DNA of 47,792 nt from a virus, in IMG/VR virus record IMGVR_UViG_3300044511_000182, positions 1 to 47,792 of that record. The stretch is one strand, 5' to 3'. Both the position numbers and the translations under genes were made by a program. Shown here piece by piece: positions 1,679-47,437 of this stretch. The notes under the pieces are model-generated. The model saw nothing but the letters and a program-made list of their open reading frames with translations. It was not told where the DNA came from and searched no databases. The stretch's first letter is position 1; each line of letters begins with the position of its first letter.

Positions 1679-1687
1679 CCACCGTCA
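1679..1687 (-). promoter_or_regulatory. TGACGGTGG site d
   Basis: Its TGA is a stop codon; the next ATG (1675) follows 3 nt after the motif. Confidence 0.5.
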
Positions 1688-1906
1688 ATCTGTTAACAGT
1701 TCTTTCCAGAACCGATCTTGAAGATCAGCATGCCATTCAGCCGCCGCGCGCAGGCGAAGTTCAAGAGTCCCGAGGTTCTTGGGGTCATTGGCGAACAGGC
1801 AGGGCTCTGATTGGATCATCAAGTTCACCAGCAACCTAGGCTGGATGTTCGTGCTTATGGGTTGCCTCTTCTTGACAGCGATGTCGTCAGTGTCCTTGTT
1901 CGTCAT
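1685..1906 (-). CDS. Hypothetical 73-aa protein in replication cluster
   Basis: ATG overlaps the stop of the upstream gene (GTATGACG), indicating coupling. The middle (IQPRLLVNLMIQSEPCLF) and the C-terminal half (LRLRAAAEWHADLQDRFWKELL) read as amphipathic helices. No family recognised. Its TGA stop is itself part of a TGACGGTGG motif. Confidence 0.65.
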   Translation of the reverse strand: MTNKDTDDIAVKKRQPISTNIQPRLLVNLMIQSEPCLFANDPKNLGTLELRLRAAAEWHADLQDRFWKELLTD

Positions 1907-2238: not shown

Positions 2239-2260
2239 TCCCCCGACCCTAGCAGACCAG

Positions 2261-2695: not shown

Positions 2696-3059
2696 AGTTT
2701 CCTTTTCCAACCTCGGTTAATTCCAAGGTTTTCCCAGATGACATCCTATCTTTGGAGGGGGTGTGGGGGAACCTTTGCCAGACCAAGCAATTGGTCCAGG
2801 ACAAAGCTTCGCCGGCACCGCCATTTGGGGTGAAGCCAAGATGTGATGGTTCGATCGCGCGATCGTTGTCAAAGCGCACCCTAGCACCTTCTTCCACCAC
2901 CGTCAAGTAACTTTGTGTCATAATTCTCACGCCGGGGATTGGGCTTTCCCCCTTTCTCCCGATCCCCGGCGGAAGGCCGGCGGTCGCCGGGGTAGAGCGC
3001 AGATCTTGCGAGGTAACGTGGTGGCGCAGGACGACAGCTCCTCCGGCGCCCGCGGTCAT
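2649..3059 (-). CDS. Doubtful ORF bridging two genes
   Basis: 136 codons starting with an ATGA overlap with the upstream gene and running 46 nt into the next gene in another frame. Low-complexity composition, no recognisable domain; residues near MTQSYLTVVEE coincide with a TGACGGTGG motif. The segment 2700-2925 also contains a TTGACG-N17-TAGGGT promoter-like pair and a perfect 14-bp palindrome, so it may be partly regulatory rather than coding. Confidence 0.3.
   Translation of the reverse strand: MTAGAGGAVVLRHHVTSQDLRSTPATAGLPPGIGRKGESPIPGVRIMTQSYLTVVEEGARVRFDNDRAIEPSHLGFTPNGGAGEALSWTNCLVWQRFPHTPSKDRMSSGKTLELTEVGKGNYDKNSRKSIDGGGRT
2662..2670 (-). promoter_or_regulatory. TGACGGTGG site g
   Basis: Codons 9-12 of the replisome-organiser-like gene; extended form TTGACGGTGGTGGAAG. 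Confidence 0.5.
2852..2865. promoter_or_regulatory. Perfect 14-bp palindrome
   Basis: CGATCGCGCGATCG, dyad symmetric without loop, about 160 nt upstream of the replication-cluster start at 2695. A dimeric regulator site is possible; PvuI-type CGATCG sites are also within it. Confidence 0.3.
2871..2907 (-). promoter_or_regulatory. Sigma-70-like leftward promoter
   Basis: Leftward TTGACG (2901-2906 region) followed after 17 nt by TAGGGT. The TTGACG is the start of one TGACGGTGG motif copy. It would feed the replication cluster at 2695. Confidence 0.4.
2897..2905 (-). promoter_or_regulatory. TGACGGTGG site h
   Basis: TTGACG with TAGGGT 17 nt on. Confidence 0.5.
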
Positions 3060-3688
3060 TGTGGGACATCCCATGTGGGCGGCGACAATTGACTCGCCAA
3101 TTCGGCTAGTAACGTAATCTCTTTCTCCATCCACTTCGCCCACGCACTACCTTGGGACTCGTTGTCGCCAGGGTGATTCGCCTCGAGTTGTCGCACCACA
3201 TCCCTCAGTGCTGCTGAAGGGTATACTGCGATGTAGGTGTGGTCACGAGCCCCTCGGAATACCACCGGTTGCCCCGTAGGCGACTGAACCGCCTCGTCTG
3301 ACGCGTGCACAGCCTTGAATACCATCGCGCCATCGCTCGCGATGAATAGGGTGTTGCCTGTGGGATTCTGCGTTTCATCCTGCAGAGCCTCTAAGAGCTC
3401 TTCCTCAACGCCATCATCGAACTGCATCTGGTCGCTCATATCATCATCAGCATTGTAATACATCCAGGCCGATCGTGGTATGTTAGGCACCATGGCCTCT
3501 GAGACGAAGACCAACATACCAGCGCTGATTGTGGCGGGGACATCTACGGTCTTGATCCACTCCGGAATCATATGGTCAGCTGCCTGGATACTTCGAGAAG
3601 CCGGTGTAGTTGGATGGTCGCTCGAGTGGCTTGATTGCGTTGGGCTGGGTGCTCTGTGGACGCTCGCGCGCGTGTGGATGCGTCCCAT
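3056..3688 (-). CDS. Hypothetical 210-aa protein
   Basis: ATG 3688 lies 1-2 nt after the preceding stop and gives MGRIHTRASVH; ATG 3571 (MIPEWIKTVDVPATI) is an alternative. The core reads as a folded domain with an acidic stretch (NADDDMSDQMQFDDGVEEELLEALQDE) followed by beta-rich segments (NTLFIASDGAMVFKAVHA, QPVVFRGARDHTYIAVY) and a C-terminal helix. The final residues overlap the next frame by 4 nt. No family recognised. Confidence 0.6.
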   Translation of the reverse strand: MGRIHTRASVHRAPSPTQSSHSSDHPTTPASRSIQAADHMIPEWIKTVDVPATISAGMLVFVSEAMVPNIPRSAWMYYNADDDMSDQMQFDDGVEEELLEALQDETQNPTGNTLFIASDGAMVFKAVHASDEAVQSPTGQPVVFRGARDHTYIAVYPSAALRDVVRQLEANHPGDNESQGSAWAKWMEKEITLLAELASQLSPPTWDVPQ

Positions 3689-3689
3689 G

Positions 3690-3950
3690 TCAGACCGTTG
3701 ACTCCAAGAAGGCGTAGAAGACTTTCCCGTTGTCCGTCCTATCAAGTCGCATCACTCTCCAACCGACGCTGATCATCTGATCAATCTCCTCGAAGAGACT
3801 CGCAGCATCGTCGTGCGCGACGTACGCATGCATTGATGTAGACACTCTTTCAATGAGAGTGTTGATTCTCAGATGTCGCTGTTGACTAGTGTCAGTACCA
3901 CTAATGTGACCACCACCTGGTGGACGGTGGAATTTACCGAACGTCACCAT
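3690..3950 (-). CDS. Hypothetical 86-aa protein
   Basis: Starts MVTFGKFHRPPGG at ATG 3950, just after AAGGAG; ATG 3998 is possible. Residues NTLIERVSTSMHAYVAHDDAASLFEEIDQMISVGWRVMRLDR look like an alpha/beta fold (helix, then strand WRVMRL and VFYAFLEST). First gene of the leftward operon that continues into the 3056-3688 gene. No family recognised. Confidence 0.55.
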   Translation of the reverse strand: MVTFGKFHRPPGGGHISGTDTSQQRHLRINTLIERVSTSMHAYVAHDDAASLFEEIDQMISVGWRVMRLDRTDNGKVFYAFLESTV

Positions 3951-4051
3951 ATCTCCTTGTCTCGTGACTATCTCTGCCTTGTATCTAGTTGACCACATAC
4001 TACCCGGCGGCCAGCTAGACCACAACCTCAAGCTGACCGCCGGGCGAACCG

Positions 4052-5437
4052 CTAGCGGTAGTGGCGCAGGTTGCCCGTCAGGGTGGGCTGGGGCTTGTTG
4101 CCTCGCGCCATACCTTTCAGAAGGTTCACCGCCTCATCGGGCCTTCCCACGTGATAGATGCGATGTTGTTTCGCGTAGCGCGCTACCTGCTCGGACAGGA
4201 TGGGATGCGAACGGTCGCCCTCACCCGTCACGATGCCGTCGCACACCCACACCACGGGTGTACCTTTCCTGCTCCCGCGCTTACTCACCGCCCACATCAG
4301 GGCAGGCAAGTCCACGCAGTTGCCTCGGGGGCGATCTCGCTTCAGTTCACTCTCGTCCACCATGTACCCGTTCCGTGCCAGCACCCACAGGTTGTCGCCC
4401 GTTGCCTTGCCGTCGCGGATGCGTCCATTGGACGAGTAGCACGCAACCGTGCATCCCGGCGCGGCACGCACAATCTCCTCCACCTGCCCGTGGCTTAGGG
4501 ACATAGAACCCGACACATCGATTAGCACCACGCCCCCGTGGTGACGGCGCGTGCGGTCGAACACCCGACGATCCGTGAGATAGCGGTGCATCCTGCGCGG
4601 ATTACGCCCCACATCACTTGCGATGCGGGTCTTGCCCAGCGCGCCAGACAGCATCCGCGTCAGGACGGTGTGTCCCTCGGACAACGGAACCCAGCGCGGA
4701 ACGGTGCCAGAGCCGGTGTGCGGACCGTGTTTGTCCGTCACATCCACGCCGTCGTCATCGCCGTCGTCGCAGTCGCCACCATCGCCACCCGAGATGCGTT
4801 CCAGCCACTCCGCAAGGATTTCGGTGTGCGTGAACCCCCTCGGGAACAGGCCGTCGTCATCCGTCGCTGCGGTGCTGGACAGTGCTTCACTGGAGATGCC
4901 ATCGAAGTAGTCCGTGACGGTGTCCCCGATGTGTCGCAGTTGGCGAGCCATTTCCGGATTTACGGATGCTACGCCCTTCACCATAGGTTTGAACCCAGCG
5001 GTACCGGCCAGCGCGGCGGCCATCATCGCAGCCCCGCGCCAGTCCCCGTTGGTCGCGTATCGCTTGCCGAACGCCATTTCATCCTCGGACTTCAGGTGCG
5101 TGGCAACATCGAACCCCGCGCGCTGGGCGAGTGCGTTCACACGCGCCTCTTCGCATACGACGAGATGTTGTTCGCTGGCGACACCACGCGCCAGCCACTT
5201 CGGCCAATCATCGGCGGGCGACACTTTCGCGTGGACAAGTTCATGCCCACGGATGACGCGCTCGTATTCCGTGTCGCCAGCGGGTGCGTAGATGCGCCGA
5301 CCGACCGGGTCGGTGCGTGGCGTTCCACGCTCCGCCGGGCAGTCGCTCACATCCCAGCGACCGATTTCGGGCTTGTCGCTCCGACCGATTAGCTCTGGGT
5401 GGACGATGTGCGTGCGACGCTGTTTCGTGCGCTTCAC
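4052..5437 (-). CDS. Metallopeptidase-like/VWA-domain protein, partner of MoxR ATPase
   Basis: 461 aa. N-terminal zincin-like segment with HELVH (residues 65-69) and a downstream EEARVN, matching the putative metallopeptidase domain that precedes VWA domains in DUF2201-type proteins. A Gly/Asp-rich linker (GGDGGDCDDGDDDG) follows, then a C-terminal VWA domain with intact MIDAS motif DVSGSMS (about residue 305). The ATG overlaps the stop of the AAA+ gene by 4 nt, so both are made together. MoxR/VWA pairs (also CobS/CobT, NorQ/NorD, RavA/ViaA) act as metal-insertion chaperones or remodelling machines; the substrate here is unknown. Domain calls are strong, function inferred. Confidence 0.85.
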   Translation of the reverse strand: MKRTKQRRTHIVHPELIGRSDKPEIGRWDVSDCPAERGTPRTDPVGRRIYAPAGDTEYERVIRGHELVHAKVSPADDWPKWLARGVASEQHLVVCEEARVNALAQRAGFDVATHLKSEDEMAFGKRYATNGDWRGAAMMAAALAGTAGFKPMVKGVASVNPEMARQLRHIGDTVTDYFDGISSEALSSTAATDDDGLFPRGFTHTEILAEWLERISGGDGGDCDDGDDDGVDVTDKHGPHTGSGTVPRWVPLSEGHTVLTRMLSGALGKTRIASDVGRNPRRMHRYLTDRRVFDRTRRHHGGVVLIDVSGSMSLSHGQVEEIVRAAPGCTVACYSSNGRIRDGKATGDNLWVLARNGYMVDESELKRDRPRGNCVDLPALMWAVSKRGSRKGTPVVWVCDGIVTGEGDRSHPILSEQVARYAKQHRIYHVGRPDEAVNLLKGMARGNKPQPTLTGNLRHYR

Positions 5438-16256: not shown

Positions 16257-16493
16257 GTGAGCAACGCGCTCGCTAACGCGAACATCAAGAAGGAGTTCGG
16301 GGAGTTCTCGGGCAAGACCGTCAAGGTCGTGCGCGCGATGAACGAACGAGAGATGTCCGCGATGGGGTGGGGCGAGTATCCGAGCGACCCCGCTCTCGTC
16401 ATCGTGTTCACCGACAACACCGCGCTCATCGTCTCGTCCGACCCCGAGGGCAATAGTGGCGGTTGGCTGTTCGTCGCCGACCTAGATGCGTGA
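16257..16493 (+). CDS. Hypothetical 78-aa protein
   Basis: GTG follows AAGGAGACACC. Reads MSNALANANIKKEFGEFSGKTVKVVRAMNEREM, then PALVIVFTDNTALIVSSDPEGN and GWLFVAD: a small beta-rich domain with a helix; conserved-looking but not recognised. LexA-like boxes 3 and 4 precede its promoter. Confidence 0.7.
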   Translation: MSNALANANIKKEFGEFSGKTVKVVRAMNEREMSAMGWGEYPSDPALVIVFTDNTALIVSSDPEGNSGGWLFVADLDA

Positions 16494-16505
16494 CGACACC
16501 GCGTA

Positions 16506-16724
16506 ATGGATGACCTTGACCGCAAACCCAAGAGGTTCGGCATTTATCACGGGGCGAACGAGCTCTCGGGACTGACGGCAACGGGGTCGCTTGCGCGCCC
16601 AATGCCGGAACTTCTCGCGGAGTTTGATGAGCTCTCGGATGCCCAGGAGTTCATGGTGTCGCTCGCGGAGGAGCTGGGCTACTTCATAGCCGAGGCGGTA
16701 CGGGAGAAACCCGACTCCGAGTAG
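16506..16724 (+). CDS. Hypothetical 72-aa protein
   Basis: Starts 13 nt after the previous stop. MDDLDRKPKRFGIYHGANELSG, then PELLAEFDELSDAQEFMVSLAEELGYFIAEAV, mostly helical and acidic. No family. Confidence 0.6.
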   Translation: MDDLDRKPKRFGIYHGANELSGLTATGSLARPMPELLAEFDELSDAQEFMVSLAEELGYFIAEAVREKPDSE

Positions 16725-16747
16725 CCATGTTCGCCGCTACGCCGGAA

Positions 16748-16761
16748 CGAACACATGTTAG
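16748..16761. promoter_or_regulatory. Degenerate LexA-like box 5
   Basis: CGAAC-ACAT-GTTAG, one change in the right half; just upstream of the duplicated promoter element. Confidence 0.4.
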
Positions 16762-16801
16762 CTCTGGCCTAGCGGCGACTTAGCTCTGGTCTAGCGGCGA
16801 C
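16758..16801 (+). repeat. 22-bp tandem duplication of the promoter element
   Basis: Two 22-nt units, each ending TAGCGGCGAC (16770-16779 and 16792-16801), one base different. Only the second is followed by a -10 box at the standard spacing. Confidence 0.85.
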
Positions 16802-16813
16802 CGTCGCTATGCT
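16792..16813 (+). promoter_or_regulatory. Phage promoter, feeds 16821 gene
   Basis: TAGCGGCGAC-CGTCGC-TATGCT; GTG start 8 nt later. Confidence 0.8.
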
Positions 16814-16820
16814 ATTGCCC

Positions 16821-17018
16821 GTGGAACGACCGACCGAGAGCACCGAGTCTGAGGTCTTCATCGGTTGCTGTGAGATGGAGACAGACACATGGGCGTGCGG
16901 CACCTGTGACACTCTGATAGGCACGCACATCACGCCCAACCCACACAACCTCGACCACACCGAGTACCGCTACGTGTGCGCTCCCTGCGCGCAGAAGTTT
17001 GGCGAGGGGGGCAGGTAG
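16821..17018 (+). CDS. Small zinc-finger protein
   Basis: 65 aa from GTG 16821, leaderless from the promoter above. CC at GCCEMETDTWACGTCDTLIGTH and YVCAPCAQKFGEGG give a C-x2-C ... C-x2-C arrangement expected to bind one zinc. No ribosome-binding site, as expected for leaderless mRNA. Role unknown. Confidence 0.68.
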   Translation: MERPTESTESEVFIGCCEMETDTWACGTCDTLIGTHITPNPHNLDHTEYRYVCAPCAQKFGEGGR

Positions 17019-17022
17019 GCAC

Positions 17023-17044
17023 TAGCGGCGACGCTTGCTAGTAT
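17023..17044 (+). promoter_or_regulatory. Phage promoter, feeds 17051 and 17308
   Basis: TAGCGGCGAC-GCTTGC-TAGTAT; ATG 6 nt after the box. Confidence 0.82.
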
Positions 17045-17050
17045 TGACCC

Positions 17051-17308
17051 ATGACCATCAACTACACGCTCACCATCAAGTTCACGGCAGACCGCCCACT
17101 CACGCAGACCGAAGCGGACTTCCTCTGCGGATCCATCGAAGCGCAGATAGACGACCCCGCACACCACGACGGCGAGTCACGGCGCGCCGAGTTCTCATCG
17201 CGCGTCGTGGGGATGAAGTGGGATGGACAGATAGACAACGACGACAACCCCTTCTTCCGCAACGATGCTGGCAAGATTACTGTCGGGTTCAGTTGGGGCG
17301 ACGTCTAG
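17051..17308 (+). CDS. Hypothetical 85-aa protein
   Basis: Leaderless start. MTINYTLTIKFTADRPLTQTEADFLCGSIEAQIDD, then EFSSRVVGMKWDGQI and ITVGFSWGDV: beta-alpha-beta pattern. Its TAG overlaps the GTG of the following gene. No family. Confidence 0.7.
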   Translation: MTINYTLTIKFTADRPLTQTEADFLCGSIEAQIDDPAHHDGESRRAEFSSRVVGMKWDGQIDNDDNPFFRNDAGKITVGFSWGDV

Positions 17309-17772
17309 TGTCGTTCCGCGAGCCAGCGACAGTCATACGCGTCGGCAGCGACGGCACCATCACGCGCCATGAAATCAAGTCATACGCCGAGGCGGCCCGA
17401 CTCGTCACCGATGGCGCGATAGATCTCATCGCCGGAGACAAGGATCGCACTTGGTACATGATTGTGGACGACATTGGTCTCGTGACAGACCCTCCGTTGC
17501 CGATCAACCTAGGGGCATCCGTGCTGGTCTCTGGGATTATCGCTGGACCAGTCGTCATCGTCGGCGCGGAGATGGACGATGGTCCCGGCTACGAGCCACT
17601 CCCATCATTCTTCTTCTCTGCCGACTTCGCGGAACTGATTGGGCAGGCTCAGGCGAGCCCAGAGTTTCGTCACGAGATCGAACATCGGCGGGCTAGAATG
17701 TCTCTTGACCCAGTCATCATCAGTCTTGGCGACAGGGTTGCTACCGCACCGGAGGTCGAGGGACTAGGGTAA
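17308..17772 (+). CDS. DUF3846-like protein
   Basis: 154 aa. GTG start in TAGTG overlap. The blocks AARLVTDGAIDLIAG, TWYMIVDDIGLVTDPPLPINLGASVLVSG and IIAGPVVIVGA match the layout of DUF3846 (basic strand, VGG/EL patch, 'vdeeg.....lp.N..A..l......I.G.vvi.g'), common in actinobacteria and their phages. Function unknown. The C-terminal 55 residues are extra. Confidence 0.6.
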   Translation: MSFREPATVIRVGSDGTITRHEIKSYAEAARLVTDGAIDLIAGDKDRTWYMIVDDIGLVTDPPLPINLGASVLVSGIIAGPVVIVGAEMDDGPGYEPLPSFFFSADFAELIGQAQASPEFRHEIEHRRARMSLDPVIISLGDRVATAPEVEGLG

Positions 17773-30832: not shown

Positions 30833-32482
30833 GTGAACATTCTCAGCCTTTTCAGCGGCGTCGGTGGCTTTGATATGGGTCTTGAGGCCGCTGGATGGAA
30901 TACGACGTTTCAGTGCGAGTGGGACAAACACTGCCAGCGCGTGCTTAAGCGGAAGTGGCCGCATGTCCCGAAGTGGCTTGATGTCTCCACATTGACTGGT
31001 GCGCGTGTTCTTGAGGCATCCCCTCCTCCCGATGTCGTGGCATGGGGTAGTCCGTGTCAGGATCTCAGTGTTGCCGGGAAGCGTGCTGGCCTGTCGGGCG
31101 AAAAGTCAAGCCTGTTCCATGAAGGAATCAGGATCATCCAAGAAATAAGGGAGTTGACCAATAATGAATACCCAAGAATCTCTATTTGGGAAAATGTCCC
31201 AGGGGCACTCACTTCCAACGGAGGTGCTGACTTCGGGGTCGTCCTTGATGAAATGGCAAAAACAGGGGCGGTGGAGCTTGAGTGGTCCGTGTTGGATGCT
31301 CAATACTTCGGAGTGCCCCAGCGACGGCGCAGAATCTTCATCGTTGCTTTCTTCCGTACTTCAGATGCCGAGCGAAGTCGACCAAAAGTTCTTCCTGTCG
31401 CCGAAAGCCTGCCAAGGAATATTGAGACGCGCATCAAGGCGAGGGAAAGTATTGCCACGACCGCTGCTGAGGGCCCTTTCGGTGATCGCGATGAAGGCAA
31501 CCGAGGGATAGTTTCAGAGAATGTCAAGATTTCCCAACTTCAGATGCCGTTCGCAAAGTCGCGGAGAGCAAAAGACAGGGATGATTTTGAGACATGGGTT
31601 ACTGGTGTGGTGTCGCCAACATTGAACACATTTGAGAACGGGACTGACACTCGTGCTACGGCATTAATCGTTTCTCGTGACCCGTTGGTTTTTGAGAACT
31701 CATATCGAGATGGGGTTCGCGTGGCGAAGGATGGTGTCACCCAGACGCTCACCAGCAAAATGGGTACCGGCGGAAACAACGCCCCCATGGTTGTTCAGGG
31801 CGACGATGTGGCGATTCCCATTCAGGATGGTCGCGAGATGGAGAAGAACCAAAACGGTTTCGGCGTGGGGGAGAATGGCGATCCTTCGTACACCCTTGAT
31901 CAGACTGGGTCTCAGTCTGTTGCGTATTCAATCAGAGAAGACGCGCACGCGGGCAATTTTAGTGCTACCGAGATAAGGGTTGCAAATGCCATTTCGGCCC
32001 TCAGGCCGTCGGTGCAATCTCATCATGCTCAGACATTTATTACACAACCCGATGATTGTGTATTTTCGTTTGATACGCAATTCGGAAGCAATGCCACGGT
32101 ATTGGAAAACACGTCTCCAACCATCAAGGCGACACAGGCATCACCCAGCATCTATCAGTACGACGGTTACAACCAAAAACTTGAGGGGGATGGTTCCCAT
32201 AGGTCATTGAGGGTGGGCAGAGACTCGAGCGACTTTATTGCTGATAACACCACTCCCAGCATGTTGGTGCGTCGTCTCACCCCGCTTGAATGCGAACGAC
32301 TTATGGGGTGGCCAGAGAACCACACGCAGTTTGCTGACGACGGCACGAGAATTGCCGACTCACAACGCTACAAGATGTGTGGGAATGGCGTTGCGGCCCC
32401 GGTTGCAACATGGATAGCCAAGAAAATAAACGAGGTTATTTCTTGGGACAACACGACCTTGGCTTCGCCGCCATTGGGTTGA
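30833..32482 (+). CDS. C5-cytosine DNA methyltransferase
   Basis: 549 aa. All core motifs: I LFSGVGGFDMG, IV GSPCQDLS (catalytic Cys75), VI WENVPG (120-), VIII QRRRRIF (163-), IX LTPLECERLMGWP, X GNGVAAPVA. The recognition region between VIII and IX exceeds 300 residues and holds repeated beta blocks (SPTLNTFENG, TQTLTSKMGTGGNNAPMVV, SYTLDQTG), a form common in phage Dcm-like enzymes. No restriction partner is visible, so it probably protects phage DNA. GTG start; TAAGTT ends 6 nt before it. Confidence 0.95.
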   Translation: MNILSLFSGVGGFDMGLEAAGWNTTFQCEWDKHCQRVLKRKWPHVPKWLDVSTLTGARVLEASPPPDVVAWGSPCQDLSVAGKRAGLSGEKSSLFHEGIRIIQEIRELTNNEYPRISIWENVPGALTSNGGADFGVVLDEMAKTGAVELEWSVLDAQYFGVPQRRRRIFIVAFFRTSDAERSRPKVLPVAESLPRNIETRIKARESIATTAAEGPFGDRDEGNRGIVSENVKISQLQMPFAKSRRAKDRDDFETWVTGVVSPTLNTFENGTDTRATALIVSRDPLVFENSYRDGVRVAKDGVTQTLTSKMGTGGNNAPMVVQGDDVAIPIQDGREMEKNQNGFGVGENGDPSYTLDQTGSQSVAYSIREDAHAGNFSATEIRVANAISALRPSVQSHHAQTFITQPDDCVFSFDTQFGSNATVLENTSPTIKATQASPSIYQYDGYNQKLEGDGSHRSLRVGRDSSDFIADNTTPSMLVRRLTPLECERLMGWPENHTQFADDGTRIADSQRYKMCGNGVAAPVATWIAKKINEVISWDNTTLASPPLG

Positions 32483-33624: not shown

Positions 33625-34551
33625 TTACTTTTTATTCTTCTTCGTGTTCTCGTATCGCTCTAAGAGTCTGCGACCCTTGGCGGCCAACTTCGCCGCATCG
33701 GATCGGTTCTTCGGGACTGGCTCACCCCAAGCCGCGGCGGAAAGCGCTAGGCGAGTCGGCTTTCCATTTTCGCCCACCATCGGACCTGACGGATTCGTGA
33801 AAAACCTTGTCAGGAACGATCCTTTGCGTCGCATTTTTTCTGGCGTGTCCGCTGGCCCTTTGACGCCAGGTTTGAGATTTGCGCCCTCGGTGCGCTTGAA
33901 ATGCGCTCGCCCAGCAGCGGTCAAACCACCCTTGGGGTCGCGGAGGGGTTTCTTTTCAGCCTTTTGCTCAACCCCATTCTCCTGACCTTGCTTGAACCAG
34001 CGTCGGCGCTTGCGCTTGCGCCTTCTGTTGGTGAGTGCCCTTCGGAGGAAGGCAGTTCCAACATCAAAAATCCACTTTTCATTCATCTCTAAAAGAGAAA
34101 CCGAATCCCTGCCTTCTGGGAAGAGTAGGTCAAACTGATCGTCAGAGAGGGATTTCAGCGCGGTCGAAAACTGCTCAGCAGACTTTCGCGCCGTTGCCCC
34201 AGCCCTTGCTGCGGCTTCGGTATTTCTAACAAACTGCCGACCACTCCTACTGCCCTCGCGCTTCTTGCGATTCGTCGCGGCTCGCTGAGCGGGCGTCAGT
34301 TTCTTCCATGCTTTCTCGGGAAGGTATCGTGTAGTTCCGCCCTTGCGAATTGCGGGTTTGCCATCCGATGTCGTCCACTTTTGACCTGACCACTTAGAAA
34401 GAGAACGTTGACCAGTTGATTTACCGCCCTTATATCCGCCGCCAGCTTTTCTATATTCCTGAGCAACGAGTTGCGCCTTGCGTGCCGACCATTGACCCGG
34501 CTTACCGCCCTTTGATCCAGCCATAATGCGACGCTTGATGCGCTCGCGCAA
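33625..34551 (-). CDS. DUF5872-DUF6321 protein, probably made by -1 frameshift
   Basis: 308 codons from TTG 34551, but the conserved domain starts upstream of it: the same frame stays open to 34659 and reads KNKYTKPGLRERIKRRI, the usual DUF5872 opening, with no ATG, GTG or TTG. Next come KGGKPGQWSARKAQLVAQEY and SDGKPAIRKGG..RYLP (DUF5872), a basic middle, and GGLTAAGRAHFKR plus RKGSFLTRFFTNPSGPM and PTRLALSAAAWGEPVPK (DUF6321). Both domains occur in phages and large DNA viruses; functions unknown. Translation probably arrives by slippage at 34653-34659 from the upstream gene, giving a fusion of about 604 aa. Confidence 0.85.
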   Translation of the reverse strand: MRERIKRRIMAGSKGGKPGQWSARKAQLVAQEYRKAGGGYKGGKSTGQRSLSKWSGQKWTTSDGKPAIRKGGTTRYLPEKAWKKLTPAQRAATNRKKREGSRSGRQFVRNTEAAARAGATARKSAEQFSTALKSLSDDQFDLLFPEGRDSVSLLEMNEKWIFDVGTAFLRRALTNRRRKRKRRRWFKQGQENGVEQKAEKKPLRDPKGGLTAAGRAHFKRTEGANLKPGVKGPADTPEKMRRKGSFLTRFFTNPSGPMVGENGKPTRLALSAAAWGEPVPKNRSDAAKLAAKGRRLLERYENTKKNKK

Positions 34552-37324: not shown

Positions 37325-40300
37325 TTAGGGGTTTGTGGCCCCTAGGGGTTGGAGAGCAGTAAAGCCGCCACCGATCTCTCGATACGACTCGTCAAGCGCC
37401 ACGGCCTTTGCGGGTCCCCATGTCCCCGGTAACCCTAGATACCCGGACTCAAAGAGTTCTCTGGCCATACGTTCGTAGGCAATCGGCCTTGTTGGGGCCA
37501 TTCGCGCCGTCGTTTCCGGGGGACGCGACTTCAGCCAAGACTTCCAAGACATCTGGGCCCATGCGGCCGCTGGATTGCCGGTTATCCGTACCGACTTCTT
37601 CCTCACCCGGTTCGGCTTCGCCATGTCGGCCACCTGGCCCCAGATTAGCCGAGTTTGGGAGGTTGCCCTGCGGGACATCTCGCCCATCTTCTTGATTCTC
37701 GCTCGGATCTCTTCGGCCTTCTTGGCCATCTTCTCCCGATTGATTGAGCCCCATGTGATTAGTTGCTGGCCCACTAGCCCTATCGCAAAGTCCATCCCGT
37801 ACCTTTCCGCCAATTGACCCAGCCCAGAATCCAACATAAAATCAAGATCTGTTTCTGGCAGGTTAGCGGTCCTCGCCAAGATTGATGCCCCGGCGAATGC
37901 GGTCGCGAACTCGAGCCCTTCTCGGACGATGTTGCTTGTTGATCCGCCGTTGATGTCCATTTCTCGGAATGCTTGGTCAACCCTTCTTGATGCGGCGTTC
38001 CAGGTCATTCGGATTGTCTCCGGGTCACCCGTGGCCCTAATCCACTCCGGGGTTCTTTGCCACCCGGACCATGTGCCTGGTTGCCCTCCCCGCGAACCCA
38101 AGCCGCGGGACTTTCGCGGCCTAACGTACAAGTAGCCGCCATCGCCATCGTCAAGTACCGGAACCGATCCCCGGAGATCTACTTCTTGGACCAGAGAATC
38201 GAGTGTCTCATCCGGGATGTCGCTATCCCAATCTTCGGCACCCATCGAATAGCGGGCCGCTTCGCGTTTGTCATGTGTTACCCATATGGCCTCATTCCCT
38301 GCCAACCCGCTAACGATGTCTTCATCCGGAACTTCGTTGCCCCGGCTGACTTCTTCTCGGATTGCGTCCCTAAATGGCATCCACCTAGGCGTGCCCGGGT
38401 CACCGTTGCGCCACCCGAAGTCTTGTGGCTCAACGACGGGGTATGCGGCATAATGCTCAAGTCGAGTTGGATCATCTGGGTCAGTTCCAGATTGCGGCTT
38501 CACTCCAGATGTCCAATTTCTCCAACCTTGCGTCGCCTTTTTCGGCTTCTTGTTCTTCCCTCTCCTGTCGTTTTCACGGATTTCATCGATGAATTCATCT
38601 AGATCGTACTTTCTGGGTGCGTTGCCTCGAGACTGAAAACCACCCGAGAGGGTTGGGGTTGCGACAGCAAAGTTCTTTCCGTCCTCAGACAATTGTGAGG
38701 AGTGGCTTAGTCGGAGTTCGGGGAATGTATCTCGGTGCATCTTCATCATTGCCGTTCCGAGCCCGCGTCGCCGATGGGACTTTTTTACTTCGATGCCATA
38801 AATCTCGTAATGATCTTTCGCGGCCCTAGTTCCAATCGGAAGGCTCGCATGCATTATCCCGGCGATGGCGCTGTTTAGTGAGTTATTACGATCGGCGGGA
38901 TGCTGTAATGCGTAATCCGAAATCTTGCCGTCGCGGGACTCAATAAGTTTCATCAAGGCATCAACCCTGTAGACAATAACTTTGTCACCGCGAGATGTAT
39001 TTTGGAGCAAATACGGGGTGGTTTTCCCGTTGGAATCTACGTACTCAACAAATCTTCTTTTATTCCTTCCGTATCTGGCCAGCGTGTCGTACGCCTTCAT
39101 GTCTGACGGGAAGTCGTCAGACAGGCGAACGGCATCAATCCGAGCCCGTATCCCTGGGCTCGGTTCTTCATCAATAATCATGGGCATGAGCTTCTGGATC
39201 CGCTCGTCGTCGTTATCAATCACCCGTAGTTTCGTGCTTCCGGATATGCCACCTCGGGACTGAAGGCCGACTGATGCTGATTCCTCTTTCTGCCTTCTGT
39301 TTCGGCGGGCCATTTGTATGATCTTGCGGATGTGGGTATTTGATGTCTCGTATTTATCGGCGAGTTTCCAGGGTCCGACGATGTCTTGTTCGTATTCCTG
39401 AAGGATCTGTTCGGCCATTTCTGGTTGTTCGAGACTGACGCGATGTCGACGCTCTCTTTCCCACCGAACATTCGCCGGGGAGACAGTTGAGCCGGGGAAG
39501 TTCGTATATCGAGGAGCGCCGTCAAACAGGGCTGGCTCTCGACGGGAGAAGCGGCCACCACGGGACGCAAAACCTTCGCTAGATCCTGCGGTCTTTCTCA
39601 TTTCTATGTTCAGGCCCAGGCCGTCGTACACCGATGCGAGTGCCTGATCGGCACCCGGCCATCTCAAGATTTCCCCGGCGGTCAGTCGTGCTGGATCATT
39701 AAACCCGGTGCGATTCATGTCGTCAATGATGTCTTCTATCCTGCGTATCGTCTTGGGAGGAATGGGTCCGTCGTCTAGTAGTTCACCTCCATCCCTCGTC
39801 TCCTTGACGATTTGCTCAAGGGCATTCTTGAGGGCATTCCAGTCCTTGTTCCTAGATACGTCATAGCCGGTTCGGGCCCAATGAGTGACGCCCGTCATCC
39901 TGCGGGGCGAACGAGCTCTTGAGGTGGAACTTGCGGCGTCAACCAATGTGTCGCCAAACCCGAGTGTCGAGTAGAGATCGTCGTTTCGGTTGTTAAACGC
40001 CGTCGCTATTCCTCTTCCCCGGTGACCGTCCGCAACAATGAACGACTTATGGAAGGCATGGGCGCGATTGGTGATCTTGTCATACCTTATGTTCCTAGTC
40101 CAAGTCGCCACTTCCTCGCCGCTCTCGTCAAAGACTCCGCCATCTACGGAGATTGAGCTCGTGCTGTCGTCGGGATGATACAGGATTGCCTGTTGGACCC
40201 TGATCTTGTACTTGCGACCATCTCGGCCAACTATTTCACCATCAAAGACGCTTCTTGCGTCATCTATGAGCACGGGACCCGCAATCGGTTTTTTACTTGG

Positions 40301-43300
40301 GCGAGGCGAGCTCTCCAGATGATCAATCAATCCCTTGCCGCCGTCTATCCGCTCCTGCGGGACTGTTGCCCCCCTTGACTGCAGGCTGGGTTCGGCATTC
40401 GGCATCTTGTTACGCGCCGCCTCAAATGCCCGCAGAGCCTCAAGTTGTCTCTTGTACTCCGCACTAGTTGCCTTCATGCGCATCTCAACATCGACGGGGT
40501 TGAGTAGCGTCCTATCGACACTTTCCCCGGCATCCTCTGCGTCGGCAAGCCTGTTGGTCATGTTCACAATGATTTGCCATGCCGCTTCTGCGTCAACATC
40601 CGCCGAGTGCCACCCGTCGCCCATGTCGTAGCCAAACTCTTCGGCAAGGTCTCCCAGCCTGTAGCCACGAAGTTTTCTGGACGATTTTTCTGGATAAGCG
40701 AGTTTCGCTATTCCCAGGCTGTCTAGATACCCGGCAGGCGTAAATAGATCAGACAACCCGGCGGCCTCAAGCGCCTGCTCCATCGCCATTTTGTCAAAGG
40801 GGTGGTTTTGGGCTACAAGTATTGGATTTGGGCCCATGAACTCGATGGCTTGTCTCAATACATCGGCATACGGCGGCTGCGTGGCAAGCCACTCGTCGGT
40901 CATCTGGATCATTTTCCCGGTTTCTGGATCGTAGCGCTTGAGGTTGTCCTTGGACCACCCGCTCAGCGGGACTCCTGGGTTCATGTAAAGATTTAGCCGC
41001 TCAACGATTTGGCCATCTCGGATTCGAACAAGACCAATCTGGACCGGCAGTCCGGTACGCAGCATTTCCCCGGTGACTGGGTCGGCATCAAAGCCAACCG
41101 TCTCAAAGTCAAATGCGATGAACTCTCCCTTGCCAAGATTTTGTACGACGTCTCTCCACGATGTTGCGCCATCAAACACCCGTTGGCCCTCCCCGGCGTA
41201 TGGCGCCGGCTGGCTACGCGGCTTTTTGGGTTGTTTGGTCGTCACATTTGCCCCACTTGGAGACTTTTTGACCTCTGGAGCGCCAACTCGGTCAATTCTG
41301 AAATCCCTGCTCTCTCCATTTCTGTCCAAGTCCGACGCGACGAGATAGGTCGCTTTCGAACCCTTTTTGATTTCTGTGACGCGAACTCGCCTTGTTTCCG
41401 GGGGACTTCCCGGCTTGGTGTACGAGAACACCAGCACGCGTCCTTCGTCTCGGGACTTCTCGGCAATTGCCACAAATGCGGCGGCATGCTCCTCGCTTCC
41501 TGGTTCTCCCGGAAGTTCTGTGACCAAGATGTCATCCTCACCGACTGGCTGGACATTTGGCTGCTTGATGTCAACGACCCGGTCATCTCCCCTGGACGCG
41601 AGCCCTGCGTATCTCTCGCTTGCTGCGGCGACCAGCTCTTCGGCGAGCCCGCTGGGTGTTCCGGGACGAGATTCGACACCATGTGTCTTCGGCAACCCGT
41701 CATCACCGGGGAACACATCTAAAGACGCGGCTTCGAACCCGCCAATAGTGGCCACGAACCTTCGACCGCTTTGACCTATGATGTATTCGTCACCAGACTC
41801 TGGGTCAAGATACAGGCGTGGCTTGCGCGGCTTGGTTCTACGCTCGATTTGTTCGACGGTTTTCCCCGGCGTTGATGGCCCCAAGCGTCGTGAGCGCGCC
41901 ATCGGCGATAAGCCACCCGTCATCGCGTCAAGTAACCCCGGCAAGAACTCGCGTTCTGGTCTAGATGAGGCGCCGATAAGGTCTTTCTCGTACTGTTTCT
42001 TGAGTCGCAGTTCCATAAGGCTTTTCCCAAGTTCGGCTGGAGATAGTTTTTTCAGCAACGTCGCGTATTCGTCAGCACCAATCGGGACTATTTCTCCTTT
42101 GCCCCTATCAAATGGCGTTTCAGCCCCAAGCGCGGCGTTTTTGATACCCATCAGTTCTTGGATCGTGCGCCCGACCTCAAGGCCGGTCATGATGTCCGTC
42201 TCAAGTCTCTTTATCTGAAGTAAGACAGTCTGATCGTCGTACCCGCTATCGCGGAGCATCTTGTTAGCCAAGATTAGTCCAGCCCATCGGTGGTGGCCGT
42301 CAAGCATGTATCGTTGCCCGTCGCCTTTTCCGGTTGCGAGAGTTGCCTGGAACATGCCGTCGGCTTTCGTAAATACGTTGTATTTGCCATCGCCACCATG
42401 TTTGGCCACGTCCCACTTGCGCAACTCTGCTAGTTGTTTCCTGTCCGACACGAGTTTCATGATTTCGTCCCGAGTTGGCTTGCGCCCGTTCTGCTCCTCA
42501 AACCACTCGGTAGCCGCTTGGACTGCTGCAACCACACCCCTTGCCATCTGCGCAACTTTTCTGGTTTGTAGTTCGTTTTGCGCCCCCAGCATGGTTTCTG
42601 GATCAACGAACTCAGCTTCGGCAACCGTAATCCCCAAGTTCCTTGCGGCCTGCTCAAACAGCGGGACTACATCAGCCTCGGTGTCGTTCCAGTTGACGCT
42701 CCCCAAGAAGGCGTCTACGTGCTCCTTCGTGATTGTGACTTTCTTTCCGCCAATCGTCGCCTTTACGGGCCTGCCGGCGTAGTAAGTCTCGGCGATGTCA
42801 GACCAGTTGTCTGCGAGGTGTTTGACGATCTCTTGCACGCCCTCATCAAGTTCGCCAAGTTTCTTTTTATCCATCTCAAACTTGCCCTTGATGCGGCCAG
42901 CGAGCAAGGCCCTGATTGCGGGACTGTCCTTCCCGACGGTGCGGCCACTTAGTTGCGGCATGTCAACCCTCGTGACACCGATGTTTTCACCGCAGAATAC
43001 GTTGGTGCCAGCGATGTAGTAGTTGCAGAGATTTATCTCAAACGATGCGGCGAAGTTGTCAACGATTTTCTTGCGTTCTGACCCCTTGGGCATCTTCCTG
43101 AACTCATCAATAGTCATTCCGTAGGACTTCAGCCAGTTTTGGAAGAGGTCGCTTTCGGCATCGGCCATCTCTCCTGTCATCTTGTCGATTTCAGCAGCAA
43201 ACTCGTCAATACTCTCCTCAAGTAGTTTTGACTCGCCAGCCTTGTCGTCCCTTATGGTGACTGCGTATCCAAGTGCCATCATCACCTTCGCCGCCGCTGC

Positions 43301-46300
43301 ATCTTGAGCTTCGTAGATGTTGCGGTTGTCGTATGTCTTATCCCCGGTGAGAGACACGCGACCCCTAAAGATCGCCTCAAGTATTTCCTCTGTTTCCCCT
43401 GGATCAAGGTCGTCAAGGTCTGTGTACCCGTGCTCCCTGAGTATCTTTAGGTACCCTTGGGCCTGGCGGGCGAGCTCGACGGCCTCCTTTGCCGACCTCT
43501 CTTGTTCTTCTTTGCTGGGCGGGACTGTCTTGCCCCTAGTCGCATCGCCCATCAGGGGCATGGGTTGACCAGGGTTATTGCGCTCCCACTCTTCTTGGCG
43601 CTTCCGTTGTTTTTCGCGTTCTTTTTCCCATCGTCTCATTGTTTCGCCTAATCTTTGGACCCCTTCATCAATAGAGTCCGCTTGTCTTCGGCGGTTCTTG
43701 GGCGATCGTTGGGCCATTTCATCTAAGAAGATGTCCACCCGCTGGCTGGCTTGAGCCATCTCTCGCACATCTTCTGATGCCATTGCCGCAACTTGGAGCT
43801 CTTCGGCACTCATGGCCCAAGGCATCGTTGGGTATGTTCGTTTGCCGGGTTTCTCAGCGTTGGTTGCCTTGACCCCAACCAGCCAATACGCCTGATCTCG
43901 GAGTGCGGGACTGAGCATTTCTATTGCCGCGGGGTTGCCGGAGAGTACGGCGGCCACCGCCTCGGCAATCATCTCGTCGGTTGAGGTTTGGCCGTATCTG
44001 GTCTGGGTCCAATAACCATTTGGGTCACGCTTCCCATTTATGACATCCATTAGACCTATTTTTGCTAGTGCCCCGTGGACATTAAATGCGTACTCAAACG
44101 CTTCAGACTGAGGCATTGATCCGTCGGCCATGCCACTTGCCCGTCGCCTGGCATAGTAGTCCAGGTAATGGCCGTACTCGTGAAGAATGACACCTTCGAG
44201 TGACTTGTCAAGGACGTTGTGATCCCCAGGTTTCGGGACGTGTCCCAGATCCATCCTGTACCCGTCCATCCACATCCGATGACCCGTGCTGCCGGGGTAC
44301 AGCAGGATGCTCCCGCCGCCAGAGTCATTCACGTATCCGCCAACCGTCGGGAACCACGGTTTCCCGTCCTCATCCCCGGTGGCGGCCCTGAAAAGTTTGT
44401 CAAAATCTGGATGTTTGAGATAGTCAAATAGCGTGGCTTTGGGGCCGAGGTCGGCACGCATGCGGTCAATAATCACCTTTGAGGCATCAGGATCTCGGAG
44501 GGACAGATGCCCCAATGGGTGTGAGATGTATGACGCGATAGTCATCCGCATCGCGCTGTCGCTGGCCATCCCCACGGGCGGCATGCCGTGTTGCTCAACC
44601 GCCCATCTCATAGCCGGGGAACTGTCAAGCGACCTCCTGAATATTTCCCTAGACATCGCGACCGCTTCCGGGGAAAAGTCGGGCTCCGCTAACTTGGCCC
44701 TCTCCCAAACCTTGTCTAGGCCCTCCTGTATCTCTGGGATGCGGGACGTCGGCTTACCTGTTTCTGGGTCAAACGTCAGCAACTTGTCGACATCCTCAAG
44801 GCGACGACGGGTCCTACCCCATGATGCCGAGGCGTGCCCGGCAACGACGCGCTCGTGCCAAGCGTCGTAAACCATCTGGTAATACTCTTGTTTCGTTGTC
44901 GGGACTGCGTAGGCAACTTTCTCGTCAGTCGATGTGTTCTGGAACATCTCTGACCGGCGTTTCGTTCTCTTGGGTTTGCCACGTCTATTGACGATTTGTC
45001 GGTCAGTAGAGTACGACGGCGCGCCACTTCTTGACGGCGCGCTACCTCTTGACGCAAGTCCATCGGCGCGACGAGCCGCAACCTGTAGATTTTGGGGTGG
45101 AACTTTGCTCGGGTCAATCAGGTGTTGCTCTCGTGGGCCACCGATTTCGACGCTGAGCACGGTGTCGAGCATTCTGTTCATCGCGTCGTTGTTCATTGCG
45201 CGGGACTCTGGGTTGGGGCTCATGTACGCCGCAAACCCCTCAGCAAACATCTCAAGCGGGTTTGTCCATGCGTACATAGGGTTAGTTGCTGGGAAGTCAG
45301 GGGGCATTTCACGGACGAAACGTTGCTCCCACGCTTCGGCCCAGTCAGGACGCCCTATTTTCTCAAAGAACTTTTCCCAAGTATCTTCTGCATAAGCAGA
45401 AACCCAACGGCTTATGGACGGGTCCACGCGCCGATACGGATCCCGAAGTTTGTTGTGAACATAGTGGCCATACTCATGTCTGTACGTCCCTCGTGGACCG
45501 GGGTCAACGAGCATTCTTGTGACCCCTTTGGGTTTGCGGTACCTGCGGTCCAGCAACGAGGAAAGTCGGGAAATCAAAGAGCGCCGAGAGTCGGTAGAGC
45601 TAGCGACCCCCAATCTGGAGTCTCTTCCAAGCCCCTTGGCGTCTTCGGGAGACAGGACGATAACTGAGCCTGAACTAGGCATGCGGATATGTATCCCTGC
45701 CCAGTTTTCATCAGCCCCCACGTGGGCCACGGAGAGTGTTTTTACGCCAGGTTTTGTGGTAGTTATGACCGGAGGTGCGCCAAATCGTTCGTGGAGTGCC
45801 CTCAGTATGGGTTCGTCGGTGAGCATCGCAGTTAGACCATCTCGAATGTCGTTTGTTTTCCAGTCAATGCTCCAGTCCGACTCGGACGCGATCCGTTCGG
45901 CATAGGTGATGGGTTCGAGCTTTTCTATGTCGCGGAAGAACTCTTCCCAAGCGTCTCTTATCTGCTCTTCCATAGCCTTATCATCATCACTAATCGCAAG
46001 GTGACTGAGCATTCTGTCAATGAAGTCATACTCATTGCGAGGCGTAATCTCCAGCGCTATGTCTTCTGGCGACATACCCTCTAGGTTGCTGTCCCATCGT
46101 CGGGATTCGAGGTGTTCGCCTCTTGATGACAGTGCGCCTCTTGACGCCAAACCTCCGGGGGTGTCAAGCGGAAGTCTCTCTGCGGCTGACCCCATCTTGA
46201 CGACTTGCTCTCTCAAGTCAGTATTCGGGTCAAGTTCTAAGATTTCGGCCACCATTCTCTCAAACCCCGGTGAAACGAGATCGCGGTCAATGCCATCGTG

Positions 46301-47437
46301 AGCAAATATCGCCGCGATGCCTTCGGCGAACTGTTCTAGTGGGGACGTCTCACCATAGAAGGTTCTGACGAAAGGTACCTCGGGTGGCAACTTTCCTCTC
46401 TGGCGCCAAATCTTGTCCCATTCCGGCTTGCCATAGATTCTCTCAAATACTCCTGGCGTGCCTGTCTTATCAATAAAATCAAGATTAAAGGCATCTTCTG
46501 TTATGTAAGCCAAGTGGAGGTCGCGACGCGTTGGAGTGTCTGACGACCGACGGAGGTCTTTCCCAAACACCTCTAAGTGTAAGTAATGTGCCCACTCATG
46601 GGTGAGTATTGACTCTAGGGATTTCCTTACTTGGAATCGTCGAGTCCCCTTGTCCCCACCAACGCTCGCACCAAATAGGAACTCAAACTTTCTGTGGAAT
46701 GCGGCCATCACTCTTGACGCGACGGGCGATGCCGACCCCTTGCCAAGTTTTGTTTTCATTCCATCTGGCGATACGCCGATGCCGAACCCTGTAAAGAAAA
46801 TCCCTGAGTATTCGAGTTCTTTACCGTCATTGGATAGGGCGAATACGGGGGGGAAACCGTACTGCTCTACCATCGCTCTCATCGATGGATTAGATAACTG
46901 TTGCTCAACACCACGTCGCAACTTCGCGACCGCTTCTGGGGAGAAGTCAATAGTCACCCGTGAGCCACCCGTGGCGCCCTGGACGATCTTGCGTACCTCT
47001 CGCATTACTTCATCTGGCGTTAGATCGACATACGACTTCGCAACTACGTGCTCTGCTATTAGGGCGGCTAGTTCTTCATACGACCCCGGTACTTGCGTGC
47101 GTGCTATGTCCGATGCCGACATACCCCTGAGCCGCCTGCGATAGCCTGAACTTCTTGACTCGTTCCTTATTCTCGCTAACTGCGACGCCTCTCTTAGTGC
47201 TCGTTCTGTTGCTCGCACCACCGCACTGATAACCGACGGTCTCTCAAACGGCGTACCGTCCTGAACCAAACCGTCGCCATCGCCATCGACTGCGTCGGGG
47301 TCAAACGTTTCGACCCTCACGCCTCCTACTCTCAGCCCTGCCTTGACCTCGGGCGAAACCAACCACCTAGACATCACGACATTATCGCTAGACGTTCCAA
47401 CGATGTAATCCAACTCTGACCAACTCCTGCTACACAA
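37325..47437 (-). CDS. 3370-aa polyvalent protein / candidate polyprotein
   Basis: Domains in order (approximate residues): DGDGDGLVQDGTPFERP acidic motif (51-67); zincin 1 HEWAHYLH (280); zincin 2 HEYGHYVH (653); zincin 3 HEYGHYLD (1084); helical region; ParB-like MLDGHHRWAG (1710); WYL-like (VLVFSYTKP...YLVASDL..RDFRIDRV, 2000-2050); DnaQ/DEDDh 3'-5' exonuclease (FIAFDFETVG 2105, AQNHPFD, HSADVDAEA 2275); GNAT 1 (HRGRGIATAFNNR, 2465); HTH (GPWKLADKYETSNTHIRKI, 2690); GNAT 2 (KKSHRRRGLGTAMMKMH, 2880); hydrophobic C-terminal module. Short (L/F)(A/Q/G)SRG(G/N) motifs stand at about 433, 438, 793, 1946, 2352, 2621, 2723, 2932 and 3111, mostly between modules. Such proteins are often injected with phage DNA. 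The called start is TTG; ATG at codon 22 (MSRWLVSPEVKAG) is likely. Confidence 0.88.
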   Translation of the reverse strand: MCSRSWSELDYIVGTSSDNVVMSRWLVSPEVKAGLRVGGVRVETFDPDAVDGDGDGLVQDGTPFERPSVISAVVRATERALREASQLARIRNESRSSGYRRRLRGMSASDIARTQVPGSYEELAALIAEHVVAKSYVDLTPDEVMREVRKIVQGATGGSRVTIDFSPEAVAKLRRGVEQQLSNPSMRAMVEQYGFPPVFALSNDGKELEYSGIFFTGFGIGVSPDGMKTKLGKGSASPVASRVMAAFHRKFEFLFGASVGGDKGTRRFQVRKSLESILTHEWAHYLHLEVFGKDLRRSSDTPTRRDLHLAYITEDAFNLDFIDKTGTPGVFERIYGKPEWDKIWRQRGKLPPEVPFVRTFYGETSPLEQFAEGIAAIFAHDGIDRDLVSPGFERMVAEILELDPNTDLREQVVKMGSAAERLPLDTPGGLASRGALSSRGEHLESRRWDSNLEGMSPEDIALEITPRNEYDFIDRMLSHLAISDDDKAMEEQIRDAWEEFFRDIEKLEPITYAERIASESDWSIDWKTNDIRDGLTAMLTDEPILRALHERFGAPPVITTTKPGVKTLSVAHVGADENWAGIHIRMPSSGSVIVLSPEDAKGLGRDSRLGVASSTDSRRSLISRLSSLLDRRYRKPKGVTRMLVDPGPRGTYRHEYGHYVHNKLRDPYRRVDPSISRWVSAYAEDTWEKFFEKIGRPDWAEAWEQRFVREMPPDFPATNPMYAWTNPLEMFAEGFAAYMSPNPESRAMNNDAMNRMLDTVLSVEIGGPREQHLIDPSKVPPQNLQVAARRADGLASRGSAPSRSGAPSYSTDRQIVNRRGKPKRTKRRSEMFQNTSTDEKVAYAVPTTKQEYYQMVYDAWHERVVAGHASASWGRTRRRLEDVDKLLTFDPETGKPTSRIPEIQEGLDKVWERAKLAEPDFSPEAVAMSREIFRRSLDSSPAMRWAVEQHGMPPVGMASDSAMRMTIASYISHPLGHLSLRDPDASKVIIDRMRADLGPKATLFDYLKHPDFDKLFRAATGDEDGKPWFPTVGGYVNDSGGGSILLYPGSTGHRMWMDGYRMDLGHVPKPGDHNVLDKSLEGVILHEYGHYLDYYARRRASGMADGSMPQSEAFEYAFNVHGALAKIGLMDVINGKRDPNGYWTQTRYGQTSTDEMIAEAVAAVLSGNPAAIEMLSPALRDQAYWLVGVKATNAEKPGKRTYPTMPWAMSAEELQVAAMASEDVREMAQASQRVDIFLDEMAQRSPKNRRRQADSIDEGVQRLGETMRRWEKEREKQRKRQEEWERNNPGQPMPLMGDATRGKTVPPSKEEQERSAKEAVELARQAQGYLKILREHGYTDLDDLDPGETEEILEAIFRGRVSLTGDKTYDNRNIYEAQDAAAAKVMMALGYAVTIRDDKAGESKLLEESIDEFAAEIDKMTGEMADAESDLFQNWLKSYGMTIDEFRKMPKGSERKKIVDNFAASFEINLCNYYIAGTNVFCGENIGVTRVDMPQLSGRTVGKDSPAIRALLAGRIKGKFEMDKKKLGELDEGVQEIVKHLADNWSDIAETYYAGRPVKATIGGKKVTITKEHVDAFLGSVNWNDTEADVVPLFEQAARNLGITVAEAEFVDPETMLGAQNELQTRKVAQMARGVVAAVQAATEWFEEQNGRKPTRDEIMKLVSDRKQLAELRKWDVAKHGGDGKYNVFTKADGMFQATLATGKGDGQRYMLDGHHRWAGLILANKMLRDSGYDDQTVLLQIKRLETDIMTGLEVGRTIQELMGIKNAALGAETPFDRGKGEIVPIGADEYATLLKKLSPAELGKSLMELRLKKQYEKDLIGASSRPEREFLPGLLDAMTGGLSPMARSRRLGPSTPGKTVEQIERRTKPRKPRLYLDPESGDEYIIGQSGRRFVATIGGFEAASLDVFPGDDGLPKTHGVESRPGTPSGLAEELVAAASERYAGLASRGDDRVVDIKQPNVQPVGEDDILVTELPGEPGSEEHAAAFVAIAEKSRDEGRVLVFSYTKPGSPPETRRVRVTEIKKGSKATYLVASDLDRNGESRDFRIDRVGAPEVKKSPSGANVTTKQPKKPRSQPAPYAGEGQRVFDGATSWRDVVQNLGKGEFIAFDFETVGFDADPVTGEMLRTGLPVQIGLVRIRDGQIVERLNLYMNPGVPLSGWSKDNLKRYDPETGKMIQMTDEWLATQPPYADVLRQAIEFMGPNPILVAQNHPFDKMAMEQALEAAGLSDLFTPAGYLDSLGIAKLAYPEKSSRKLRGYRLGDLAEEFGYDMGDGWHSADVDAEAAWQIIVNMTNRLADAEDAGESVDRTLLNPVDVEMRMKATSAEYKRQLEALRAFEAARNKMPNAEPSLQSRGATVPQERIDGGKGLIDHLESSPRPSKKPIAGPVLIDDARSVFDGEIVGRDGRKYKIRVQQAILYHPDDSTSSISVDGGVFDESGEEVATWTRNIRYDKITNRAHAFHKSFIVADGHRGRGIATAFNNRNDDLYSTLGFGDTLVDAASSTSRARSPRRMTGVTHWARTGYDVSRNKDWNALKNALEQIVKETRDGGELLDDGPIPPKTIRRIEDIIDDMNRTGFNDPARLTAGEILRWPGADQALASVYDGLGLNIEMRKTAGSSEGFASRGGRFSRREPALFDGAPRYTNFPGSTVSPANVRWERERRHRVSLEQPEMAEQILQEYEQDIVGPWKLADKYETSNTHIRKIIQMARRNRRQKEESASVGLQSRGGISGSTKLRVIDNDDERIQKLMPMIIDEEPSPGIRARIDAVRLSDDFPSDMKAYDTLARYGRNKRRFVEYVDSNGKTTPYLLQNTSRGDKVIVYRVDALMKLIESRDGKISDYALQHPADRNNSLNSAIAGIMHASLPIGTRAAKDHYEIYGIEVKKSHRRRGLGTAMMKMHRDTFPELRLSHSSQLSEDGKNFAVATPTLSGGFQSRGNAPRKYDLDEFIDEIRENDRRGKNKKPKKATQGWRNWTSGVKPQSGTDPDDPTRLEHYAAYPVVEPQDFGWRNGDPGTPRWMPFRDAIREEVSRGNEVPDEDIVSGLAGNEAIWVTHDKREAARYSMGAEDWDSDIPDETLDSLVQEVDLRGSVPVLDDGDGGYLYVRPRKSRGLGSRGGQPGTWSGWQRTPEWIRATGDPETIRMTWNAASRRVDQAFREMDINGGSTSNIVREGLEFATAFAGASILARTANLPETDLDFMLDSGLGQLAERYGMDFAIGLVGQQLITWGSINREKMAKKAEEIRARIKKMGEMSRRATSQTRLIWGQVADMAKPNRVRKKSVRITGNPAAAWAQMSWKSWLKSRPPETTARMAPTRPIAYERMARELFESGYLGLPGTWGPAKAVALDESYREIGGGFTALQPLGATNP

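Follow-up and report, generated by a model that had tools for sequence, protein, structure and literature searches.

Polyvalent proteins pose the question of how a chain of several thousand residues fits into a phage head and delivers separate enzymes. This question is raised by a giant protein encoded in the 47,792-nucleotide stretch of DNA analyzed here (the window), an IMG/VR virus record that is a fragment. As described in the initial annotation, a 3370-aa open reading frame exists at 37325..47437; it lies on the minus strand and begins with TTG, and an ATG at 47374 (residue 22) is a plausible alternative start. A 100% identical copy of the giant is present in L002, and rearranged homologues were found in L003, L092, and L091. 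No structural genes were found in the window fragment; relatives lie in or near capsid regions. Extension of the record through overlapping contigs was unsuccessful, and a scan of bacterial genomes returned weak single-domain matches and nothing stronger, so no host was identified.

Unrelated effector and enzyme domains are joined in this one phage-encoded chain, including three copies of a zincin-like metallopeptidase with HExxH and a downstream Glu (all features given below are on the minus strand). The three zincins and a ParB-like block were identified by reading the sequence. Zincin 1 (46226..46936) carries HEWAH at residue 280 and FAE at 370-372, its catalytic residues being invariant in six relatives; zincin 2 (45134..46072) carries HEYGH at residue 654 and has a weak ATLF-type match below the cut-off; zincin 3 (43868..44965) carries HEYGH at residue 1086. 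The ParB-like block with its DGHHR (residues 1243-1815; 41993..43711) aligns with residues 1677-2218 of L003, where its position relative to the DnaQ module is shifted. A small mobile domain with a confident AlphaFold2 fold comes after it (residues 1867-1940; 41618..41839). The modules originally listed were broadly right, with the DnaQ-type exonuclease (residues 2105-2302; 40532..41125; phrog_192 3.6e-22, PF00929 1.2e-9) and one GNAT, module 2 (residues about 2780-2923; 38669..39100; PF00583 2.9e-6 for a match at 2867-2923), being solid. Less secure are the WYL-like domain (residues 1997-2055; 41273..41449), which falls just under the PF13280 cut-off at 21.4 against 21.8 bits and whose homologue in L092 scores above it, the weakly matched GNAT-like module 1 (residues 2387-2550; 39788..40279; phrog_25452 0.004), and a weak HTH-like module (residues 2668-2718; 39284..39436; Mor-like 0.23). 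Toward the C terminus, a module of about 100 aa (residues 3008-3110; 38108..38416) is conserved and relocated in L003, L091, and L092, and a conserved region (residues 3198-3331; 37445..37846) has homologues at the C-terminal ends of L091 and L092. Judged by its predicted architecture the giant is a polyvalent protein, resembling the giant multidomain proteins described from conjugative elements and phages, in which zincins and domains of the ParB-like, GNAT, and nuclease types are strung together (Iyer et al. 2017, PMC5512222). A further feature is a short motif at the borders of its modules.

About nine recurrences of an SRG-type motif had been noticed in the chain, and the pattern [LF].SRG indeed matches nine times against 0.17 expected from composition shuffles (maximum of 3 in 2000). 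A fuller core is found in eight copies, beginning at residues 429, 793, 1945, 2351, 2622, 2724, 2933, and 3112. The first two, both GLASRG, lie in predicted coil at residues 429-434 (46136..46153; pLDDT about 22) and 793-798 (45044..45061; pLDDT 24-28). Four others were placed by pattern match and AlphaFold2 model: the third, GLASRG (residues 1945-1950; 41588..41605), the fifth, GFASRG (2622-2627; 39557..39574), the sixth, GLQSRG (2724-2729; 39251..39268), and the seventh, GFQSRG (2933-2938; 38624..38641). Homology with L092 stops at the fourth, SLQSRG (2351-2356; 40370..40387), which was placed in the same way, and homology with L003, L091, and L092 stops at the eighth, GLGSRG (3112-3117; 38087..38104). 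The ninth match, ALSSRG (435-440; 46118..46135), is in near-tandem with the first copy, and three more SRG strings (2815, 3031, and 3110) fall outside the motif pattern. The motif is nearly always in linkers, as had been claimed, though two borders have no intact copy: that between zincin 3 and the ParB-like block (1203-1243), with only a degenerate GDATRG at 1297-1302 (43532..43549) opposite an L003 motif at 1737, and that between the ParB-like block and the next domain (1815-1882).

A de novo pattern search placed the motif among the top patterns in the window and in most relatives. No copy was found in the other plausible genes of the window, which rules it out as a feature of all genes. 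The codon string differs in every window copy, and an origin as a DNA-level repeat was ruled out for this reason.

The homologues changed the definition of the motif itself. SRG had been taken as the recognition core, and this exact core was ruled out because the homologues vary at the Arg position, with R, S, T, V, I, or M. The copies in L092 read DGFSSRG, DGFASSG, EGFSSIG, DGFASRG, DGFASTG (twice), and EGFASRG, and L003 has GLASRG or GFASRG five times at the borders of reshuffled blocks, plus one GFASVG. The Arg is therefore not required, which leaves G-[FLM]-x-S-x-G as the core, or, more broadly, G-[FLM]-x-S-x-[GST]. Between L003 and L092, which are 60% identical, the G, the S, and the final G are identical in six of six aligned copies, while the flanks are 42% identical. 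Distinct codons in each copy, together with the retention of G, S, and G in relatives, indicate that the motif is under selection at the level of the peptide.

Among homologues, motif copies are the places where modules change order, are added, or go missing. Comparing the window with L003, the zincins stay put, the ParB-like block and the WYL-DnaQ pair are exchanged, and so are the 3008-3108 block and a GNAT; the prediction that the motif would stay at borders while modules shuffle thus held in relatives, the Arg itself not being kept. In L091, a piece of about 130 aa is inserted between two motif copies elsewhere in the chain; its core (residues 863-940) is a relative of the small mobile domain that precedes WYL in the other homologues. 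In L092, two motifs stand 10 aa apart (DGFASTGVNRDGFASTG), where L003 and L091 have extra sequence. Overall, 11 of 36 ends of homologous blocks lie within 12 aa of a motif against 4.0 at random (P=0.005), an exact fit that is somewhat flattered because BLAST may extend to a conserved motif. This coincidence of homology breakpoints with motif copies is what would be seen if the motif were a functionless scar or hotspot of shuffling, modules spreading with a bit of common linker; however, the DNA of the copies has diverged and G, S, and G are kept all the same, and we regard this explanation as quite improbable.

AlphaFold2 models built from six-row alignments, whose overall confidence is low (mean pLDDT 59 and 50), put all seven copies tested within or on the margin of stretches with pLDDT below 50 between structured parts. 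None of these seven copies was placed inside a folded domain, and both the breakpoints and these low-confidence models put the motif in unfolded interdomain linkers, as would be expected of a processed polyprotein. We consider it very probable that the motif functions as a recognition signature.

A second element points to where the chain may go. Near its N terminus the giant carries FDPDAVDGDGDGLVQDGTPFERP (residues 45-67; 47237..47305; phrog_7924 6.8e-5), of the form FDPDAxDGDGDGxVQDGTPFERP, which occurs in capsid-region genes of other phages. A search of phage records with this tag gave no match or weak ones only, and scanning viral contigs with its conserved stretch brought up 60 loci. Small HK97-like phages have the tag in the C-terminal half of a 78-79-aa protein whose gene separates those of the S78 prohead protease and the major capsid protein, and in larger phages it lies within long proteins adjoining the capsid gene. 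The capsid and protease genes beside the tag are informative because the loci were found by the tag and not by capsid genes. We infer that the tag is a head-targeting element. The DGDGDGxVQDGTPFERP element is common to the giant, the phrog_7924 protein, of unknown function, and the 78-79-aa intergenic protein; unlike the giant, the latter two are small and standalone, without cargo modules or border motif. Proteins of 78-79 aa with this element recur in many small phages (for example L009:5158-5394, L024:1614-1850, and L061:1947-2186).

In many uncultivated phages, the S78 prohead protease forms the N terminus of a 2000-2900-aa chain, followed by the tag and then by many motifs. Thus in G003, G004, and G005, S78-headed proteins of 2250-2305 aa adjoin a portal gene, identified by reading the sequence, and carry the tag followed by 8-13 copies of the motif; in G003 and G005, S78 is the N-terminal domain of the motif-bearing chains, and in G004 it was matched. 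A scan with the S78 domain of these chains gave at least 589 confirmed relatives, of which 80 loci were kept. By de novo pattern counts, among the chains in the matches listed, the dominant motif differs per phage group (GMAS, GFAS, GF.S.T, GLAS, GLRS, or GLSSG), and none was dominant in some related chains of that set, mostly shorter ones. The motif of G012 is GL[ST]GAM, present in two other chains. One of the loci, L162 (a 174-kb contig), encodes an S78-headed chain of 3190 aa in which GP[VIA]GxM (GP.G.M class), a motif similar to the G012 form, recurs eight times. Over the stretch covered, the S78-headed chains of L115 and L117 are dominated by ANLxxA-type, pentapeptide-like repeats and not by a border motif.

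Within a phage, the motif is homogeneous: in ten chosen chains, 73 of 78 copies carry the modal hydrophobic residue of their chain against 44 after shuffling (maximum 53), a figure that is descriptive only because the ten chains are related. In G005, the GMAS form also occurs in three other proteins encoded upstream of the capsid gene. Homogeneity across the chains of one phage is the expectation if one reader per phage recognizes the peptide, and its persistence despite differing codons needs protein-level selection, which again speaks against a shuffling scar. Such a reader need not cut. The linkers could instead bind a phage-specific partner such as a scaffold, the capsid shell, or a chaperone that threads the chain into the head, and a phage-specific peptide common to chains in a capsid-gene context would suit an uncut docking site of this kind. 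Yet a copy at almost every border exceeds the needs of anchoring, and placement at pLDDT minima on borders suits cutting better, so that docking seems unlikely to us.

We infer a different course of events, in which the giant would be a polyvalent cassette chain whose acidic, Gly-containing N-terminal tag steers it to the assembling head, and its modules (zincins, ParB-like, WYL, DnaQ, GNAT, and others) would serve as cargo early in infection. In its linkers it would bear a phage-specific recognition peptide, G-[FLM]-x-S-x-[GST], whose reader would most likely be a capsid-maturation protease (the S78 prohead protease acting in trans, or one of the chain's own zincins acting in cis), and the reader would cut the chain inside the prohead into separate enzymes. 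Cutting by a capsid-maturation protease would account for the linker position of the motif, its repetition at most borders, its phage-specific drift, and the capsid context. The giant is best read as a capsid-directed polyvalent polyprotein with a phage-specific intermodule recognition site that is a candidate site of the capsid-maturation protease. The fifth motif position, the natural P1 candidate, is variable, and this counts against cleavage, as does the lack of the motif at some module borders. On balance, we lean only slightly toward the prediction that the motif is cut, and the account as a whole, from cassette chain and head tag to a linker peptide read and cut in the prohead by a phage protease, is the best explanation at about an even chance.

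As to which protease would cut, S78 is favored because the motif array is joined to it, and we put forward S78 cleavage of the motif as a tentative prediction. The records of the window, L091, L092, and L003, each of them a fragment, yielded no S78 protease, and the major capsid protein is likewise absent from the window record. The capsid protein offers a comparison; in HK97 it is cleaved at K103|S104. Alignment to HK97 predicts [YF]xVK|D as the processing site of the capsid protein in every large relative tested, among them G012 with its border motif GL[ST]GAM. This delta-domain site is constant whatever the border motif, so the idea that the border motif copies the capsid-protein cleavage site was not supported, and the comparison of predicted sites did not support S78 as the cutter. 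The initial annotation had instead proposed that a resident HExxH domain may cut the chain at the motif. All three zincins of the giant do have HExxH and a conserved Glu as third ligand, and zincin autoprocessing of polyvalent proteins has been proposed (Iyer et al. 2017, PMC5512222); the richest motif arrays, however, are in S78-headed chains without a Pfam zincin, and P0006 and P0007 likewise carry the motif without a zincin hit; the phages concerned do encode zincins elsewhere. Self-cutting by zincins is therefore one option only, unsupported as originally written, and in our estimate an improbable one.

Zincin processing and virion packaging of polyvalent proteins were predicted earlier (Iyer et al. 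2017, PMC5512222), and in the text of that paper we found neither a border motif nor a phage-specific border code. Its polyvalent proteins have assemblin-like peptidases only at their C-termini, whereas here S78 is N-terminal and followed by the tag and the motif array. Counting against cleavage is the N4 virion RNA polymerase, which is a polyvalent protein, contains a zincin, and is packaged without being cut (PMC5512222). A precedent for cleavage is SPN3US gp245, which cuts several packaged head proteins at a short motif, and T4 propeptides direct proteins to the prohead core (PMC10052503). The likeness to SPN3US gp245 and the T4 internal head proteins is that several packaged proteins share one short cleavage consensus; in those systems it is propeptides that are removed, almost always from the N terminus, whereas here the motif separates many modules in one chain and varies between phages. 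A search of the open literature found no description of such a border motif, an absence that is not proof. The giants of isolates (Streptomyces phage Gilgamesh, 4624 aa; Brevibacterium phage Cantare; Gordonia phage GMA6) have no comparable motif, and hence no model among cultured phages was found.

With a border peptide that is legible in the sequence, an answer to the packaging question becomes testable and the modules of such chains can be told apart by eye; the tag offers a means of predicting which proteins of uncultivated phages are packaged in the head. If the motif is cut, the phage proteases that read it would form a family whose specificities have diverged naturally and can be predicted. 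It is conceivable, at somewhat less than an even chance, that an RNA-virus-like polyprotein strategy is widespread in the heads of uncultivated tailed phages, with a protease-headed cargo chain and further capsid-tagged chains all cut at a peptide that diverges phage by phage with its reader.

Several other gene arrangements were observed around these chains. Gilgamesh gp48 (L094:1979-15853), the 4624-aa hypothetical protein in which no border motif was found, is encoded between a portal/MuF fusion and the major capsid gene. The window also encodes a DUF5872 and DUF6321 protein (33625..34551, minus strand; PF19846 8e-29), and these modules recur in capsid-region chains of G012 (L088:5070-11891 and L086:2199-4859). 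Several GL[ST]GAM motifs occur in the first of these, a 2273-aa capsid-proximal chain that has NUDIX and zeta-toxin-like kinase modules. A DUF6321-like sequence adjoins the capsid gene in G024 (L100). Finally, the homologous giant in L003 is flanked by a total of four DNA methyltransferase genes (639-4364 and 16463-17725), and the window has one, at 30833-32482.
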